Origin: Hyphomonas chukchiensis
Lineage (GTDB): Bacteria > Pseudomonadota > Alphaproteobacteria > Caulobacterales > Hyphomonadaceae
DNA: 64,000 bases
Direction: 5' to 3'
Assembly: GCF_000682695.1 (NCBI RefSeq)
Contig: NZ_AWFG01000041.1
Span: 124,001-188,000 of the forward strand
Shown: piece after piece, positions 3,098-10,126 of the stretch
Position numbering within the stretch: the stretch's first letter is position 1
Layout of the letters: the number at the start of each line of letters is the position of its first letter
Made by a program: the position numbers and the translations under genes
The notes under the pieces: model-generated
The model's database searches: none
Seen by the model: only the letters and a program-made list of their open reading frames with translations
What the model was told of the DNA's origin: nothing

Positions 3098-3514
3098 ATG
3101 TATGCACGGGATGTGGACGCGGCGGCGGAATTCTATCACGGCACACGGGCGGACCTTGGCACGGGAGACCTGATCGGTCCCGGCCACCGCTCCAATTATG
3201 GCAGCCGGCGCGTGGCCAAGCATGTCTATTTTGCCGCGACTCTGGAGGCGGCGATCTGGGGAGCGGAACTGGCGCAGGGCGAGGGGCGCCAGCGCATCTA
3301 CCGCGTCGTGCCGACGGGCGCGTTCGAGGACGACCCCAACCTCACCGATCAGAAATTCCCCGGCAATCCGTCCATGTCCTACCGCACGCGTGATGCGCTG
3401 CGCATCATTGGTGAGGTTGAAACATGGCAGGGCCATGCGCCCGACGTGCTTCAGGCAATGCGTGACCACGTCGCGGAGCTGGCGCGTCAGGGGATCGAAG
3501 CGCTTGATGAGTGA
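3098..3514 (+). CDS. arr: Rifamycin ADP-ribosyltransferase (Arr)
   Basis: This 138-aa protein matches the short Arr family end to end: EFYHGTRADL near the N-terminus, GHRSNYG, VYFAATLEAAIWGAE, EDDPNLTDQKFPGNP, SYRTRDALRI and WQGHAPDVLQAMRDH. Arr transfers ADP-ribose from NAD+ to the C23 hydroxyl of rifamycins and inactivates them. Length is typical for the family. ATG is preceded by GGAGGG at about eight bases. The gene stands alone, convergent with the next gene eleven bases downstream. Codon use is like the GC-rich core, so this looks like a resident chromosomal copy rather than a recent cassette. Whether it confers measurable resistance in this host is not visible. Confidence 0.92.
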   Translation: MYARDVDAAAEFYHGTRADLGTGDLIGPGHRSNYGSRRVAKHVYFAATLEAAIWGAELAQGEGRQRIYRVVPTGAFEDDPNLTDQKFPGNPSMSYRTRDALRIIGEVETWQGHAPDVLQAMRDHVAELARQGIEALDE

Positions 3515-3885: not shown

Positions 3886-4326
3886 TTACTTCCAATAGCC
3901 AGAGCGCTGTTGTGGTTCTGCAAAAGTATCCGTTACATCATGAAGTCGGTCAGATTTTCTCTTGGCAGAGACATATCCGAGCAGAAACACTAAACCGTAT
4001 AAAACGTAGCAAACCAATCCTGCTGTGAAGGCGCTCGCTAACTGTTCCTGGGGTAGAGATTGGGCGGCACCGAAAGCGATGAAGCCAGAAAACATTCCCA
4101 CGCTTGATGTCAAATATGAGTAACGAGCTAAGGGCTTAGTTTTCCTGACGAAAAGTAGCACTGCGAGACCAAGGATAATGGGCAGGATGGCCATAGTAGA
4201 AGCGGTAACATAGTCCAATATCCGATCAACTTCGACATCACCCGTATTCGCAAAGGGTCGGTTGCAGAAGAAGAACAGCGTTGAGGTTATCAACCAAAGA
4301 GATAGGAATACCAATATCAGGCGCAT
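3886..4326 (-). CDS. Four-TM membrane protein of the RelA/SpoT cassette
   Basis: A 146-aa protein with four hydrophobic segments at about residues 2-20, 42-62, 70-92 and 100-122 and a charged C-terminal tail (about 123-146, ending RSGYWK). The start is the third in-frame ATG, because only it has a good ribosome site (AGGAG six bases upstream). It is the last gene of a three-gene, AT-richer unit: unknown 342-aa protein, RelA/SpoT-domain synthetase, then this gene 75 bases downstream. No family was recognised. By position it may be a membrane effector, sensor or immunity-like partner of the synthetase; that is inference from context only. Confidence 0.65.
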   Translation of the reverse strand: MRLILVFLSLWLITSTLFFFCNRPFANTGDVEVDRILDYVTASTMAILPIILGLAVLLFVRKTKPLARYSYLTSSVGMFSGFIAFGAAQSLPQEQLASAFTAGLVCYVLYGLVFLLGYVSAKRKSDRLHDVTDTFAEPQQRSGYWK

Positions 4327-4401
4327 CGACACTCCTAAACTTCTAACCTGAAGCAAGTGAAGGTTGGATGGCAGAGCGATACCCACCATCATTTGCTGCT
4401 T

Positions 4402-5025
4402 CTAGGGTTTCCTAAACTGCACTATTCTACTTCGAGCGATCTCTTCGAACGCATTGTCTGCGCCCCAAGCCTGAGCAGAGGCAAAAGCTATCTTCCGCTT
4501 ATCGTCAAAGGTTAGTGGCTCGTTTTCTTCTTTATAGTCGAGATCGTGGCTTGCCTCTGACCACGCATGTTGGAAAACCGTCTTGATTTGAAGCTCAAAA
4601 ATCTCAGGTGCTTGGTCGGGCATGCCTTCTACGAGAACGTCTGAGGGCAAAAGCAACACAAAGTGCTTTCCGAAATAGCCAAATTCGTACTCTGAGTTGG
4701 GAGATAATTCCTTCTCCTCAATCGGTGTGAAGTGCGTTTCAACCATCTTGGTGAGCGCCTCCACGTCTGGCCTGTAGAACGTCACTATTCGGGCACCAAC
4801 TACGTCTTGAATTTGTTCAAGCGGATCGCTGTACTTAGCTGAGCCGTCGTTATTGAGTTTTGCGGCTTTCTTGACAAAGCTATCAATTGCCTTGGCCCGG
4901 CACGAAATGCGGTCCACACGCGGTTGTTTTTCGAAGACCTCTTTTAAGTGCAGCTCAAGTCGGGCGGCCAGCGGAACTAAATGTTTCTCTCGGATTTCCT
5001 GATAAGCCTTGTCGAAGCTGATCAT
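4402..5025 (-). CDS. Small RelA/SpoT-domain nucleotide pyrophosphokinase
   Basis: A 207-aa protein that is essentially a lone RelA/SpoT synthetase domain (PF04607). Visible signatures are the ATP-binding RAKAIDS block (R43, K45, S49), DPLEQIQDVVGARI with the Mg-binding Asp about 74, and FELQIKTVFQHAWSEASHDLDY (E144, H153, H160). There is no HD hydrolase, TGS or ACT domain, so it should make, not degrade, a phosphorylated product. Small synthetases include (p)ppGpp makers and also toxic versions that make (p)ppApp or modify tRNA; which applies cannot be read here. It starts in a four-base ATGA overlap with the upstream 342-aa gene, implying strict co-translation. AT-richer than core genes, consistent with horizontal transfer. 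Confidence 0.85.
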   Translation of the reverse strand: MISFDKAYQEIREKHLVPLAARLELHLKEVFEKQPRVDRISCRAKAIDSFVKKAAKLNNDGSAKYSDPLEQIQDVVGARIVTFYRPDVEALTKMVETHFTPIEEKELSPNSEYEFGYFGKHFVLLLPSDVLVEGMPDQAPEIFELQIKTVFQHAWSEASHDLDYKEENEPLTFDDKRKIAFASAQAWGADNAFEEIARSRIVQFRKP

Positions 5026-6050
5026 TTTTCAGCTCCGATCCGACGGCGAACAATTCGCTCATCAACAATTCGCCCGGTCGTTTGAAATTGGGTTTTGTCG
5101 CCGACTTTCTTGGCCTCGAAAACTTCAGCAAACTGAATCGCATCCGCTGTGAGTACCCCTCCATTGTCGAGGACAATGGATCGGTACTTAAAATGCTCCG
5201 AGAACGCGACCGGTGCAAACTTGAAGTTTTCAGAGTAGGTGCCCGGATTTTTCAGGTGAGATTTGATAGCCGCGATGGTCTCAGCGGTGAAATTTAGCTT
5301 TTGAGCTATGTCTTCGATGCTCGTTACGCTTCCAGAAAATTTTGAGAGCAACATGCCAGCGCCAGCTATCTGTTGCTTAACGTCTAAACTCTTTGAGACC
5401 GTTGCAGCTTTCTTCAGCGCTTCAGCCATGCGCTTAGTTCCAGCTACTGACGTCGTAACAAAATCAGACTCTAAGAAATCGAAAATCCAGTACTCGGATG
5501 AAAGCCCGCTTACATCATTGATCTGCTTATCGACTGCCTTTCCTTTCCAAGCGCTGGAAGTCGAGATGACGTTTTTATAGGCGACAGCTTTGTACGAACG
5601 AGCGCTCTTCATGAATACACGTTCGAGATATTCAACTGAGAGCCCGCCGTTCTTCTCGTCAGCGAGTATCCCGCTGTCAGCCGGAAACCTCGAAATTACC
5701 ACCATGGGCTTTCCCTTATAAAGCCCACGAACGAGAAATAGCAGACCCAAGCCGGATCGTTTGGTCGTGACCAATTCCAGTTTGTGCGCAATTTTCGTGG
5801 CGGTCGATAAACTGGGCGTCTCTGAGAACTCTGCGATAAGGTCTCGCGCGGCATTTTTTTGCTTTCCATCGGGCGCCATCTTGAAAACGATATCGATGTT
5901 GCACTCTTGATCAGAGGTCTCGAAAATACCGTTCAACATGTCAAAAAGCTTGCCGCTTTTAGGTAGTACCGTTCCTGCCGTGTTGGATTTTTTAGCGCTT
6001 TTGAGCTCTTTCACTAGGAATGAGCAAATGTGGGTTACCCCATCGGTCAT
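5022..6050 (-). CDS. Unknown 342-aa protein, first gene of the RelA/SpoT cassette
   Basis: A soluble-looking protein without a signal peptide or membrane segment. Residues about 85-150 (LVTTKRSGLGLLFLVRG, VVISRFPADSGILA, LSVEYLERVF) and 165-215 (AWKGKAVDKQIND, YWIFDFLESDF, GTKRMAEAL) look like an alpha/beta core, followed by a helical C-terminal third ending in a basic tail. I do not recognise a named family. The ATG at 6048-6050 has AGGGG seven bases upstream, and that site overlaps the TAG stop of uvrB, so the gene is likely co-transcribed and coupled with uvrB. Its own stop overlaps the RelA/SpoT start by four bases. Codon use is AT-richer than uvrB, indicating an acquired cassette. Confidence 0.75.
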   Translation of the reverse strand: MTDGVTHICSFLVKELKSAKKSNTAGTVLPKSGKLFDMLNGIFETSDQECNIDIVFKMAPDGKQKNAARDLIAEFSETPSLSTATKIAHKLELVTTKRSGLGLLFLVRGLYKGKPMVVISRFPADSGILADEKNGGLSVEYLERVFMKSARSYKAVAYKNVISTSSAWKGKAVDKQINDVSGLSSEYWIFDFLESDFVTTSVAGTKRMAEALKKAATVSKSLDVKQQIAGAGMLLSKFSGSVTSIEDIAQKLNFTAETIAAIKSHLKNPGTYSENFKFAPVAFSEHFKYRSIVLDNGGVLTADAIQFAEVFEAKKVGDKTQFQTTGRIVDERIVRRRIGAEK

Positions 6051-6060
6051 AGATCGGCCC

Positions 6061-8250
6061 CTAAATCCCCAAATCCTGCTCCCGCAGCCGCTTTAGCTCG
6101 TCGCGCAGCCGCGCCGCATCTTCGAATTCCAGGTTAGCGGCGGCTTCGCGCATCCGTTTTTCTGTATCTGCGATGACAGCTTTCAAGTTGTGACCAGATT
6201 CACCGGCAAGTGGCAAGGCTTTTTCTTCGGCCATGCCTTTGTCGCGGTCACGGCGGGCGCGGGATTTGGTGCCGGGTTTCTCGCCCAGCTCGCCGAGGAT
6301 GTCCTGCACGCCGCGGATGATCGTGGTCGGCGTGATGCCGTGCTCCAGGTTGTGGGCGATCTGTTTCTCGCGGCGGCGGCTGGTCTCTTCCATGGCGCGT
6401 TCCATGGAGCCGGTGATGCGGTCGGCATAGAGGACGACGCGGGCCTCGGAGTTGCGCGCGGCGCGGCCGATGGTCTGCACGAGGCTGGTCTCCGAGCGCA
6501 GGAAGCCCTCCTTGTCCGCATCGAGGATGCCGACAAAGGCGCACTCGGGAATGTCGAGCCCCTCACGCAGCAGGTTGATGCCGACGAGCACGTCGAACAC
6601 GCCGAGCCGGAGATCGCGGATGATCTCGATGCGCTCGATCGTGTCGATGTCGGAGTGCATGTAGCGCACCTTGACGCCGTTCTCGTGGAGGAATTCGGTG
6701 AGGTCTTCCGACATCTTCTTGGTCAGCGTCGTGATCAGCGAGCGGAAGCCCTTGGCCGCGACGGCCTTCACCTCCGCCATGACATCATCGACCTGGTTGG
6801 CGCCGTCCTTCGAGACGGGGCGGACCTCGACGGGCGGGTCGATCAGGCCGGTGGGGCGGATGACCTGTTCGGTGAAGACGCCGCCTGTGCGCTCCAGTTC
6901 CCACTTGCCGGGCGTGGCCGAGACGTGGATCGTCTGCGGGCGCATGGCGTCCCATTCCTCGAACTTGAGGGGGCGGTTGTCCATGCAGGAGGGGAGGCGG
7001 AAGCCGTATTCGGCCAGCGTCGACTTGCGGCTGAAGTCGCCCTTGAACATGGCGCCGATCTGCGGGACGGTCTGGTGGCTCTCGTCGGCGAAGACGAGGG
7101 CATTGTCCGGCAGGTATTCGAACATGGTCGGCGGCGGCTCACCGGGCTTGCGGCCGGTGAGGTAGCGGCTGTAATTCTCGATGCCGTTGCAGCTGCCGGT
7201 GGCCTGCAGCATTTCGATGTCATACTGGCAGCGCTGCTGGATGCGCTGGGCCTCGAGCAGTTTCCCGTGTTTCTCGAAATGCGCGATCGTGGCCTTCAGC
7301 TCGGCCTTGATCTTCTCGGTGGCCTGCTGGAGCGTCGGGCGGGGCGTGACATAGTGGCTGTTGGCGTAGATCTTGATCGCGGGGAGGGACTGGATCTTCG
7401 CGCCGGTGAGGGGGTCGAACTCGGTGATGGCTTCCAGCTCGTCGCCGAAGAAGGAGAGCTTCCAGGCGCGGTCCTCATAGTGGGCGGGGAAGATGTCGAT
7501 GACGTCGCCCTTCACGCGGAACGTGCCGCGCGTGAAGGCGATGTCGTTGCGAGTGTACTGGTTGGCGACGAGGCGCTCGGCAACGGCACGCGGGTCGATG
7601 CGCTGGCCGGGCTCGAGCTTGAAGGTCATCGAGGTATAGGTCTCGACCGAGCCGATGCCGTAGATGCACGAGACGGAGGCGACGATGATGACGTCGTCGC
7701 GTTCGAGGATGGCGCGGGTGGCCGAGTGGCGCATCCGGTCGATGGCCTCGTTGATGGAGGATTCCTTCTCGATATAGAGGTCGGCGCGGGGCACGTAGGC
7801 CTCCGGCTGGTAGTAGTCGTAGTAGGAGACGAAATACTCGACGCTGTTCTCGGGGAAGAAGGATTTGAACTCGCCATAGAGCTGGGCGGCGAGGGTCTTG
7901 TTGGGGGCGAGGATCAGGGCAGGGCGCTGGGTCGCCTCGATGATCTTGGCCATGGTGAAGGTCTTGCCGGTACCGGTCGCGCCGAGGAGGACCTGGTCGC
8001 GCTCGCCGGCCTGGATGCCATCGACGAGTTCGGGAATGGCGGTGGCCTGGTCGCCCGCAGGCTCGTAGGGCGCGTGGACCTTGAAGCGCTTGCCGCCTTC
8101 CAGCTTGTCCCACTCGCGGTCGGGCCTGTGCGGCGTCCACAGCATCGGGGCCACGGTCTCGATGGCGCCCTGCGCCGGCCCGTCCAGCGTGAACACGGAC
8201 GGGGCTTCAGAGACGCCTTTGGCGGGGGATTTGGAGGAGGAACGGGCCAT
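6061..8250 (-). CDS. uvrB: Excinuclease ABC subunit UvrB
   Basis: A 729-aa UvrB, the helicase-like damage-verification subunit of nucleotide excision repair, which loads from UvrA2 and recruits UvrC. Visible features: an N-terminal extension of about 45 residues, Walker A GATGTGKT, the DNA-gripping beta-hairpin region YYDYYQPEAYVP, FADESHQT, the GLDIPECAFVGILDAD and IGRAARN helicase motifs, and a C-terminal UVR motif (LEFEDAARLRDELKRL) for UvrC contact. Length is slightly above the usual ~670 because of the N-terminal extension. A near-consensus SOS box sits about 40 bases upstream. Downstream it runs straight into the 342-aa cassette gene. Confidence 0.97.
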   Translation of the reverse strand: MARSSSKSPAKGVSEAPSVFTLDGPAQGAIETVAPMLWTPHRPDREWDKLEGGKRFKVHAPYEPAGDQATAIPELVDGIQAGERDQVLLGATGTGKTFTMAKIIEATQRPALILAPNKTLAAQLYGEFKSFFPENSVEYFVSYYDYYQPEAYVPRADLYIEKESSINEAIDRMRHSATRAILERDDVIIVASVSCIYGIGSVETYTSMTFKLEPGQRIDPRAVAERLVANQYTRNDIAFTRGTFRVKGDVIDIFPAHYEDRAWKLSFFGDELEAITEFDPLTGAKIQSLPAIKIYANSHYVTPRPTLQQATEKIKAELKATIAHFEKHGKLLEAQRIQQRCQYDIEMLQATGSCNGIENYSRYLTGRKPGEPPPTMFEYLPDNALVFADESHQTVPQIGAMFKGDFSRKSTLAEYGFRLPSCMDNRPLKFEEWDAMRPQTIHVSATPGKWELERTGGVFTEQVIRPTGLIDPPVEVRPVSKDGANQVDDVMAEVKAVAAKGFRSLITTLTKKMSEDLTEFLHENGVKVRYMHSDIDTIERIEIIRDLRLGVFDVLVGINLLREGLDIPECAFVGILDADKEGFLRSETSLVQTIGRAARNSEARVVLYADRITGSMERAMEETSRRREKQIAHNLEHGITPTTIIRGVQDILGELGEKPGTKSRARRDRDKGMAEEKALPLAGESGHNLKAVIADTEKRMREAAANLEFEDAARLRDELKRLREQDLGI

Positions 8251-8508
8251 GCGTCCAGATATGGATGCGGGGCAGGGGCGTGTCTAGGGTGTTCTTGGTT
8301 TGTTTGCTGTTGCTGCTGACATGAACAGGAGGGCGGTGAATGACCTTTTCTTTCATCATGAGGCCCAGCGGATACGGGACAAGTTCTTACGGCTCCGTTT
8401 TATCGGCTTTGAAAGTGGTGCCAATAGCGAGGGGCGTCGATCCTACTTGCAGTTGCTGCTTGCTAAGTCCAACATCCAATTTGGGTTGAGGAAAGGGGCG
8501 GGTGCTGA
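8251..8508. promoter_or_regulatory. Divergent uvrB / ParA-type gene promoter region with SOS-box candidate
   Basis: GTTC at 8291-8294, seven bases, then GTTT at 8302-8305: one mismatch from the alphaproteobacterial LexA site GTTC-N7-GTTC. It lies 41 bases upstream of the uvrB start, a sensible operator position. The rest of the stretch separates two diverging genes and becomes AT-richer toward 8400-8508. A 71-codon plus-strand frame (8300-8515) overlaps the next gene and has no good ribosome site. Confidence 0.55.
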
Positions 8509-9693
8509 ATGTTAGAGGAATCGGCTAATAGTGAATCCTTACAAATGCCTGATGCTCAAAAGCTTTGGGAATGGGGCGTTAGCTTTGTACCAGACGAATA
8601 TAAGCAGTGGGTCGTGGTGGGGGGAACTGCACTTGTAACCGCTCTCGTAGTTCTAAACTACGCTACGACTTTGTTGCGCTTTTGGCGGGAAGTGAGAAAT
8701 TTTTGGAAGTCGAAAAAGCCTGTCGTGCCTCTTGGCCCAGATGAGATGCCTCCTCCCAAAATTAGTTTTTGGACCAAGCCTGTCAACGTCGCTAAACGGC
8801 CTTCGAAGCTTTCGAATTCGATTCCAATAGTCACAATCGCGGCAATGAAAGGAGGGGTTGGAAAGACTACTCTAACCGCCAACCTTGCTGCGTTTTTGGA
8901 CAGGAGGGGTTCGCGAGTTTTGCTTATCGATTTCGATTATCAGGGGTCTTTATCTCAGATGGTCACGGCAGCGGCAAACTTATCAGTTAAAGCTAGCGTT
9001 GTAGACAGTTTGATAGACGGCACCGCAACGACCGAGAGCATACTCACCTCGGCGCGAAGCTTATCGCCAGCGCTTCCGAATACGAAACTGCTCAGCTGCT
9101 ATTATCAATTTTCGGACACTGAGACCAACGTAATGGTGAACTGGGTGTGTGCGGATCGAATGGGTGGCGAGACCGAGGAAATCCGTTTTCGGCTTGAGCG
9201 GCTTTTGCATAACCGAGATTTCCAGTCACAATTTGACTTTGTGTTGATTGATGCGCCTCCTCGCTTTTCCACAGGAGCGATGAATGCATTTTGTGCGAGC
9301 ACACACATGATTATACCGACAGTGCTGGATACAATGTCGGCTGAAGCGGCAACTTATTTTTCGCAAGATATCGCATCAATGCGTCAGGAACTGTTTCCGG
9401 AACTGCAATTGATTGGCGTTATCCCTTCGATGACTTATCAAACCGCGAAATATACGCGTAGAGAAGACGATATTATCGACTACTTGAACGACAATCTGAA
9501 GAAATTTTGGGGCGGGCGCTCCGTCGTCTTGGAGAAGGCGAACATTCCTCGAAAAAATGCGATCGGAGACGTGGCTGGCTTAGATATCGGATATCTCGAC
9601 GCTGGCACGAAGACCGCGACAGCTGAAGTCCGGAAAATATTTGACAGAGTAGGCGCGGAATTTTTGAGACGGTTAGAACATGAACAAAGCTAG
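8509..9693 (+). CDS. Membrane-anchored ParA/MinD-type P-loop ATPase
   Basis: A 394-aa protein: one transmembrane segment at about 34-56, a Pro/Lys-rich linker (65-105), then a ParA/CbiA-type ATPase domain with deviant Walker A KGGVGKT (114-120), the LLIDFDYQGS block (about 138-147) and Walker B FVLIDAPP (about 244-251). ParA ATPases partition plasmids or position cargo, but they are normally soluble; an N-terminal membrane anchor is unusual. There is no HTH domain of plasmid ParA type. The start is taken at ATG 8509, with a GGAAAGG/GGGGCGGG region upstream; ATG 8545 is possible. It overlaps the next gene by 14 bases. Composition is AT-richer than the core. A role in defence, partitioning of a mobile element or protein positioning are all open. 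Confidence 0.85.
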   Translation: MLEESANSESLQMPDAQKLWEWGVSFVPDEYKQWVVVGGTALVTALVVLNYATTLLRFWREVRNFWKSKKPVVPLGPDEMPPPKISFWTKPVNVAKRPSKLSNSIPIVTIAAMKGGVGKTTLTANLAAFLDRRGSRVLLIDFDYQGSLSQMVTAAANLSVKASVVDSLIDGTATTESILTSARSLSPALPNTKLLSCYYQFSDTETNVMVNWVCADRMGGETEEIRFRLERLLHNRDFQSQFDFVLIDAPPRFSTGAMNAFCASTHMIIPTVLDTMSAEAATYFSQDIASMRQELFPELQLIGVIPSMTYQTAKYTRREDDIIDYLNDNLKKFWGGRSVVLEKANIPRKNAIGDVAGLDIGYLDAGTKTATAEVRKIFDRVGAEFLRRLEHEQS

Positions 9694-10126
9694 ACTGATT
9701 GCCGACCTGAAGAGCCTGATGAAGGATGTTGAGGACTTAGGCGGTAATGCACCTTCGTCGCTTCTACTTGAGTTCGTAACGGGACTTGAGAACCAGACGT
9801 TTACCATTTCAACCAAGACTACCCGGAAACCCAGTGGTATTCCTCGCAAGCCCCGTAAAACGGCAGCAGGAAAAAAGGATCCGGCGGCCGTGGCAAACAC
9901 AATTTCTGAACTGAGCTCTAAGCTTAGAGCCGCTTTTGAAAGCGATGAGAAGTTTGAGCGTACTGTTCAGGATCTTGAAGAAAGCGGCTTAACAAAAGCC
10001 AGTGTCATTGAAGTTTATAATGCCGTTTTTGATACTCGGAAGTCTTTTCCAAAATCAGTATCCAAAGACGCGCTGCTGAAAGCGTTACGTAAAGATCGTA
10101 TCGCAAAGGTACGAGCAGCGTCTTAG
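9680..10126 (+). CDS. Small basic protein paired with the ParA-type ATPase
   Basis: A 148-aa protein whose start overlaps the ATPase gene by 14 bases. Residues 1-40 form a predicted helical segment (LIADLKSLMKDVEDL, SSLLLEFVTGL). Residues about 44-66 are a Lys/Arg/Pro-rich linker (TTRKPSGIPRKPRKTAAGKK), and the rest is helical and charged, ending KALRKDRIAKVRAAS. This looks like a DNA-binding or ATPase-stimulating partner (the way ParB or small CopG-type proteins work with ParA), but no family was recognised, so this is context inference. Same AT-richer composition as its partner. Confidence 0.7.
   Translation: MNKARLIADLKSLMKDVEDLGGNAPSSLLLEFVTGLENQTFTISTKTTRKPSGIPRKPRKTAAGKKDPAAVANTISELSSKLRAAFESDEKFERTVQDLEESGLTKASVIEVYNAVFDTRKSFPKSVSKDALLKALRKDRIAKVRAAS

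Follow-up and report, generated by a model that had tools for sequence, protein, structure and literature searches.

A small alarmone synthetase paired with a YejK-like protein in a probable defence or toxin-antitoxin operon downstream of uvrB in Hyphomonas chukchiensis

Alarmone-synthetase toxins act in phage defence, and the partners described for them in the literature searched comprise small antitoxins, hydrolases and fused domains; the products of the toxSAS enzymes are the subject of a review (PMC12691689). A YejK nucleoid-associated domain is among the domains newly validated in defence systems in E. coli (PMC13092281), NdpA2, a protein of the YejK family, is encoded on an ICE (PMC8565334), two temperate phages carry YejK-like genes (PMC10305613), and the Kiwa system is summarised in PMC12904381. 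Among the literature matches listed, whose scope leaves most subscription journals outside, none, judged by title and opening of the abstract, pairs an alarmone synthetase with a YejK/NdpA protein. Such a pair is found in the window investigated here, the whole stretch of 64,000 nucleotides that was analysed (contig NZ_AWFG01000041.1, positions 124,001 to 188,000), where gene A, coding for a YejK-like protein, and gene B, coding for a small alarmone synthetase (SAS), probably constitute a SAS-based defence or toxin-antitoxin operon. The types of its parts are already known, and what is new, as far as the searched literature shows, is their combination.

The distinct composition of the pair becomes apparent in comparison with its closest described counterparts. 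As in the toxSAS operons of FaRel2, PhRel2, CapRel and FaRel, a stand-alone RSH synthetase domain resides in an overlapping two-gene operon, and B shares with these enzymes the absence of a hydrolase domain and the preservation of eight counterparts of donor-site and catalytic residues. In contrast, the counterpart of S70 of FaRel2 varies among B proteins, and the partner, a protein of about 340 amino acids, is predicted to adopt a YejK fold. A resembles YejK/NdpA proteins (Pfam NA37) in its fold, which matches over the full length, and in a collinear profile match, whereas it differs from them in being beyond the reach of the Pfam model, paired with a synthetase and located on mobile elements. 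Unlike Kiwa (KwaA-KwaB), A-B contains neither a KwaB Pfam match nor a conserved membrane partner and has a synthetase instead. The likeness of A to the YejK-domain system found with DefensePredictor, which was protective in E. coli (PMC13092281), is at the level of the domain as far as the accessible description extends. We assign a probability of about 0.6 to the reading that A-B is a mobile module, most likely antiphage, in which B would be a growth-halting pyrophosphokinase and A its YejK-like controller; support for it comes from the conserved operon, the predicted folds, the active-site residues, the horizontal spread and the location in a defence-rich slot.

The organisation of the locus is summarised in Table 1. 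The earlier note had described a trio of AT-richer genes following uvrB on one strand, with 10 bases between uvrB and A, a 4-base overlap between A and B and a Shine-Dalgarno-like motif of A that reaches into the uvrB stop codon, all of which is borne out by the sequence. Scans from uvrB to C for promoters and terminators gave counts near those of shuffled sequences (3 vs 1.9; 4 vs 3.4), and a search for repeats marking the border of a mobile element found short chance-like repeats only.

Table 1. Features of the uvrB-proximal locus, in positions of the window
Feature	Position	Strand	Description
uvrB	6061-8250	minus	ORF; GC 0.647; chromosomal anchor of the cassette slot, outside the module
Gene A	5022-6050	minus	342-aa YejK/NA37-fold protein; GC 0.480; first gene of the conserved pair
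Gene B	4402-5025	minus	small alarmone synthetase of 207 aa with a RelA_SpoT synthetase domain and no other; GC 0.487
Gene C	3886-4392	minus	168-aa membrane protein (146 aa from start at 4326); GC 0.467; neighbour, outside the module
ATGA, overlap of A stop and B start	5022-5025	minus	sequence; 4-base overlap in 19/23 other junctions listed
Shine-Dalgarno-like AGGGG of gene A	6058-6062	minus	overlaps uvrB stop codon 6061-6063
LexA-box-like site upstream of uvrB	8291-8305	plus	one mismatch from GTTCN7GTTC

That A and B form a single unit is supported by their conserved order, their overlap and their correlated divergence. Gene A was found in 4 of 101 relatives, all of them in the genus (sampled with 42 genomes), and a close B, with at least 44% identity, is present in the same four; weaker B matches (29% identity) in four other relatives lie within longer proteins. 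In a class sample of 385 genomes, H. chukchiensis is the sole carrier of A; at E 1e-20, B matches occur in its genome and in three others, where the proteins are longer (316-355 aa) and weaker. The rarity of A in this sample counts against an antiphage role. Beyond the relatives, A was located in 20 loci on genome contigs. By their titles these belong to Alpha-, Beta- and Gammaproteobacteria, Planctomycetota, Acidobacteria, Gemmatimonadetes, Eremiobacterota and Chitinophagales, with the class of some records following from the genus named; since 15 of the 20 titles say MAG, single taxon labels may be wrong. In 17 of these loci B directly follows A, and in the remaining three (L033, L037, L038) A runs off the end of the contig; A is broken in L032, L033, L036 and L037. 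The ATGA overlap recurs in the large majority of the other A-B junctions (Table 1), among which L026, L027 and L029 are near-identical. The junction is kept beyond chance in records of several phyla, unlike gene C and the coupling to uvrB. The distances among A proteins correlate with those among B proteins (r 0.875 for 20 pairs, in a test that leaves out L029 as near-identical to L026), a value reached in 0 of 5000 permutations, whose maximum was 0.707; as a common history of transfer of both genes would also give correlated distances, this does not prove their contact. The alignment of A (A3) was built without the near-identical L027 and the broken or cut copies L032-L038.

The sequence of B is that of a competent small alarmone synthetase. 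PF04607 is the sole Pfam family in the protein (E 2.9e-14), in line with its previous description as a lone synthetase without a hydrolase. Its predicted model (pLDDT 84.0) matches the fold of SAS1/RelQ of B. subtilis (5dec) with an E-value of 2.4e-10 and that of CapRel with 7.7e-8. The donor-site, catalytic and acceptor residues of FaRel2 have been described (PMC11782079). Mapped by reading of the motif spacing, R64, K66, K74, D90, R95, Y128, E145 and Q147 of FaRel2 correspond to R43, K45, K53, D74, R79, Y117, E144 and Q146 of B, which are invariant in all 18 aligned B proteins. The higher profile score for RelQ (40 bits) than for CapRel (22 bits) provides a mild hint that the product of B may be a nucleotide rather than a modified tRNA. 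Among PADLOC models, PDC-S33 matches B with an E-value of 3.7e-9, over positions 38-177 of 349 only. B is not the sole RelA/SpoT protein of its genome, since an open frame of 767 amino acids elsewhere also contains PF04607.

No Pfam family was detected in A, which does not reach the curated cut-off of NA37; one of 14 relatives touches this family at E 0.0033, and PF04245 has no match in the genome of H. chukchiensis and none among 61 near relatives. The best viral match of A in Foldseek is at 2.0e-5. A search with PADLOC models gave no match for A at E 1, and one of the 14 relatives touches REase_II at 0.044; the absence of a model for A and the partial one for B count against the antiphage reading. 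A is probably not an antitoxin of a known kind, as neither pZFD, Tis1-like, PanA nor hydrolase Pfam families were detected and the fold search led to YejK, though such an antitoxin may be absent from these listings; that no known toxSAS antitoxin was detected likewise weighs against an antiphage role. An identity of A as KwaB of a Kiwa system was also dismissed, since the likeness is confined to a weak similarity of the fold, and the KwaB domain PF16162 has no match in A or elsewhere in its genome.

In the mechanism that we favour, B would act as an active pyrophosphokinase that halts growth once it is released, either by producing (p)ppGpp or (p)ppApp or by attaching pyrophosphate to the ends of tRNA. 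A might keep B silent, or it might turn B on upon encountering a signal of infection, which would probably be phage DNA or altered nucleoid DNA. What we infer in this proposal is that B is toxic and under the control of A, what triggers it and what it makes, and that the pair protects from phages. The pairing of a synthetase with a protein of the YejK kind hints at a further route by which infection may be sensed, via the state of DNA or of the nucleoid, and it would provide a context for proteins with a YejK fold in defence. An alternative distribution of roles, where B is the sensor and its nucleotide switches A, a DNA-binding effector that blocks phage DNA, would combine the logic of CBASS with a KwaB-like output and link alarmones, YejK and the capture of DNA in one mechanism. 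We regard it as unlikely, since by Z the likeness of A to KwaB ranks among unrelated entries and its profile match does not rise above background (prob 0.1), and an antitoxin-toxin relationship fits the gene order and overlap equally.

The distribution of the pair on plasmids and viral contigs identifies it, at the level of sequence records, as a mobile, horizontally spread two-gene module. A was found in 6 of 72,556 plasmid records, and the same six contain B at 48-54% identity, whereas other B matches (seven in plasmids and three in phages) do not exceed 36%. B adjoins A in all four plasmid records read as whole loci; in plasmid H2/H8 the matched parts of both genes are 51 bases apart, and in the sixth plasmid a gene for an IS481 transposase is located between them. 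In three rhizobial plasmids the pair lies near a DarT-annotated gene together with TniQ/TniB genes, near a TIR-domain gene or near an AbiJ-domain gene. A has no match in GenBank phages, and it is found together with B in three viral contigs (L039, the same contig as L052, L050 and L053). Four further viral contigs (L051, L054, L055, L056) contain B or a piece of it with no A beside it, which counts against the antiphage reading; a search for A in the records that contain L051, L054 and L055, each possibly a fragment, found none. The C-terminal part of B is lost or changed in L051 and L054, and in the 174-kb record of L055 most active-site residues are kept, with L and Y replacing R79 and H153. 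A family of orphan B proteins acting as phage decoys was considered and discarded, as L055 is the one full-length case and a scan with it retrieved only itself.

Carriage on plasmids also fits a selfish addiction module and in this respect counts against a role in defence. In such a module, the toxin-antitoxin pair would stabilise plasmids or islands and have no antiphage function, in accordance with the typing of all six A-carrying plasmid records as conjugative and with the integrase or recombinase genes near L026, L033 and L039. We consider this explanation rather improbable in light of the presence of A-B in viral contigs and in a chromosomal slot that holds defence-like genes in sister genomes.

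This slot, the 3' flank of uvrB, is shown by comparison of its sequences to be a defence-rich site of cassette insertion in the genus. A uvrB match is present in all 42 genus genomes, with fragments only in G026 and G037; uvrB loci were obtained from 30 of these genomes, most of which differ from each other in the DNA downstream of the gene, and 20 were read in more detail. The 700 bases downstream of uvrB are below 0.53 GC in 21 of the 30 loci. At least 200 bp are common within 1 kb downstream of the gene in 23 of 435 pairs of loci, 15 of which are among GC-rich genomes and six involve G020, the last two being an A-B pair and a HipA-like pair. The slot contains a SIR2 protein and a ParA-like ATPase in G002, AbiL/RloB in G011, GmrSD-N proteins in G003, G024 and G025, a HerA-like protein in G008, an AAA_21 ATPase with PtuA-model matches in G012, a HipA-like kinase in G031, with a similar protein in G019, and a dCTP-deaminase-like protein in G013. 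From 35 slot ORFs below 0.56 GC, 20 from 14 genomes were submitted to PADLOC and 20 to Pfam. PADLOC matches at 1e-5 were obtained for 10 of the 20 proteins from the slot, spread over 9 of the 14 genomes, compared to one of ten GC-rich flanking proteins, with scanned and control ORFs both picked by eye and two of the nine genomes relying on weak matches (G016, 2.8e-10; G031, 3.8e-6). A match to a ParA, HerA or AAA model is no specific sign of defence. Scans of one or two genes per genome assigned no family in G018, G041, G005 and G022 (and in G007, by Pfam only), and the slot offers further inserts without a known family, for example in G018, G041 and G005.

The position of the pair relative to uvrB had led to the proposal that expression of the cassette is coupled to this gene, which agrees with the short gap in H. 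chukchiensis and does not extend to the other three genus members with A-B or to loci outside the genus. The distance between uvrB and A is 50 bases in G009, and an ORF of 76 amino acids separates them in G035. In G004, an ORF of 158 amino acids and a remnant of a uvrB tail are found in between; the latter is a diverged duplicate of the 3' end of uvrB, including a stop, that lies just upstream of A and separate from the resident uvrB, and it looks as though the cassette had brought along the tail of a foreign uvrB. Outside the genus, the examined stretches of A-B loci L021-L044 and L047-L056 contain no uvrB match. In 26 of 30 genus loci, the best site of the locus is within one mismatch of GTTCN7GTTC, the alphaproteobacterial LexA box, and is located 46-70 bases ahead of the uvrB match; in three of the other four a LexA-like box is at the usual place, and the fourth (L108) has no usable upstream sequence. 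As the window contains 45 such sites compared to 41.6 expected, a single one per genome is unremarkable and the weight lies on its conserved position. It is plausible that this box links uvrB to DNA damage and that, in this genome, transcription from an SOS-type uvrB promoter reads through into A-B. The box, conserved in 26 to 29 of the 30 loci, and the YejK-like fold of A would also suit a stress-regulation pair in which an SOS-driven stringent response and a remodelling of the nucleoid are tied to uvrB, an interpretation that we consider very improbable for a pair that is AT-rich, mobile and patchy (4 of 42 genus genomes) and that occurs outside the genus with no uvrB in the stretches examined.

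A system of three genes including the membrane protein C, as put forward in the earlier note, is practically untenable and was dismissed, since C, despite its shared strand and similar GC content, is present in one of 101 genomes, absent from every other A-B locus scanned and equipped with its own ribosome-binding-site-like sequence, so that of the proposed unit only A-B stands. No match to C at E 1 or better was found in ORFs of L016-L044 and L047-L056, and the protein itself gave no family above the curated cut-off and no PADLOC match at E 1. The 75 bases previously given for the gap between B and C apply if C starts at the later methionine at 4326, which is preceded by AGGAG, whereas from its first ATG the gap amounts to 9 bases. 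The number of its transmembrane segments, given before as four, is three to four, with three obtained by a hydropathy cut-off.

In the genus, the DNA on the 3' side of uvrB (loci L119-L138) is a hypervariable cassette slot, whose AT-rich inserts differ. Inserts in nine of the 14 genomes scanned contain PADLOC matches. In four genomes (G018, G041, G005 and G022) no family was found among the insert proteins scanned, and these inserts may hold unknown defence genes. In genus member G004, A, the gene of the YejK/NA37-fold protein, is preceded by a divergent uvrB 3'-end remnant that contains a stop (Table).

On the far side of uvrB, the position of the LexA-box-like site is conserved in most genus loci. 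The ParA-like ATPase encoded in the window by the pair on this side contains a single, N-terminal transmembrane segment. The same pair occupies the same position in genus member G035, and it was not found in loci L017 or L018, the latter from G004.

Table. Coordinates of features around uvrB and the A-B cassette
Feature	Location	Strand	Remarks
AT-rich gene pair	window 8509-10126	+	across uvrB from cassette; ParA-like ATPase and 148-aa protein without known family
Same pair, G035	L016 4191-5811		
LexA-box-like site	window 8291-8305	+	upstream of uvrB
DNA methyltransferase-like, HNH endonuclease-like and Vsr endonuclease-like genes	L018 14538-16850		G004, far side of uvrB; likeness judged by eye
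Divergent uvrB 3'-end remnant with stop	L018 11540-11713	-	directly upstream of A; separate from resident uvrB
A-B pair interrupted by IS481 transposase gene	L139 212-1162; L043 7953-8948		transposase gene between A and B; R. leguminosarum Vaf10 plasmid
B-like gene without A	L055 5899-6618	+	174-kb viral record
Arr-type rifampin ADP-ribosyltransferase gene	window 3098-3514	+	adjoins cassette; NF033144 above cut-off
Hypothetical gene, ~160 aa	L040 9693-10175; L041 9689-10171; L042 9691-10173	-	after B, opposite strand; three rhizobial plasmids

The pairing of A with B, the gene of the small alarmone synthetase, is not preserved in every copy. In the Vaf10 plasmid it is broken up by the inserted transposase gene. 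In four loci (L032, L033, L036 and L037) A is broken or split in two frames, for which sequencing error, masking and decay are possible causes; two of them, L032 and L036, retain an intact B. The protein of the viral B-like gene in L055 carries leucine and tyrosine at the positions of Arg 79 and His 153 of the window protein, and the gene could be an inactive phage-borne copy (n=1).

Among the genes adjoining the cassette, the Arr-type gene of the window is an ordinary member of its family.
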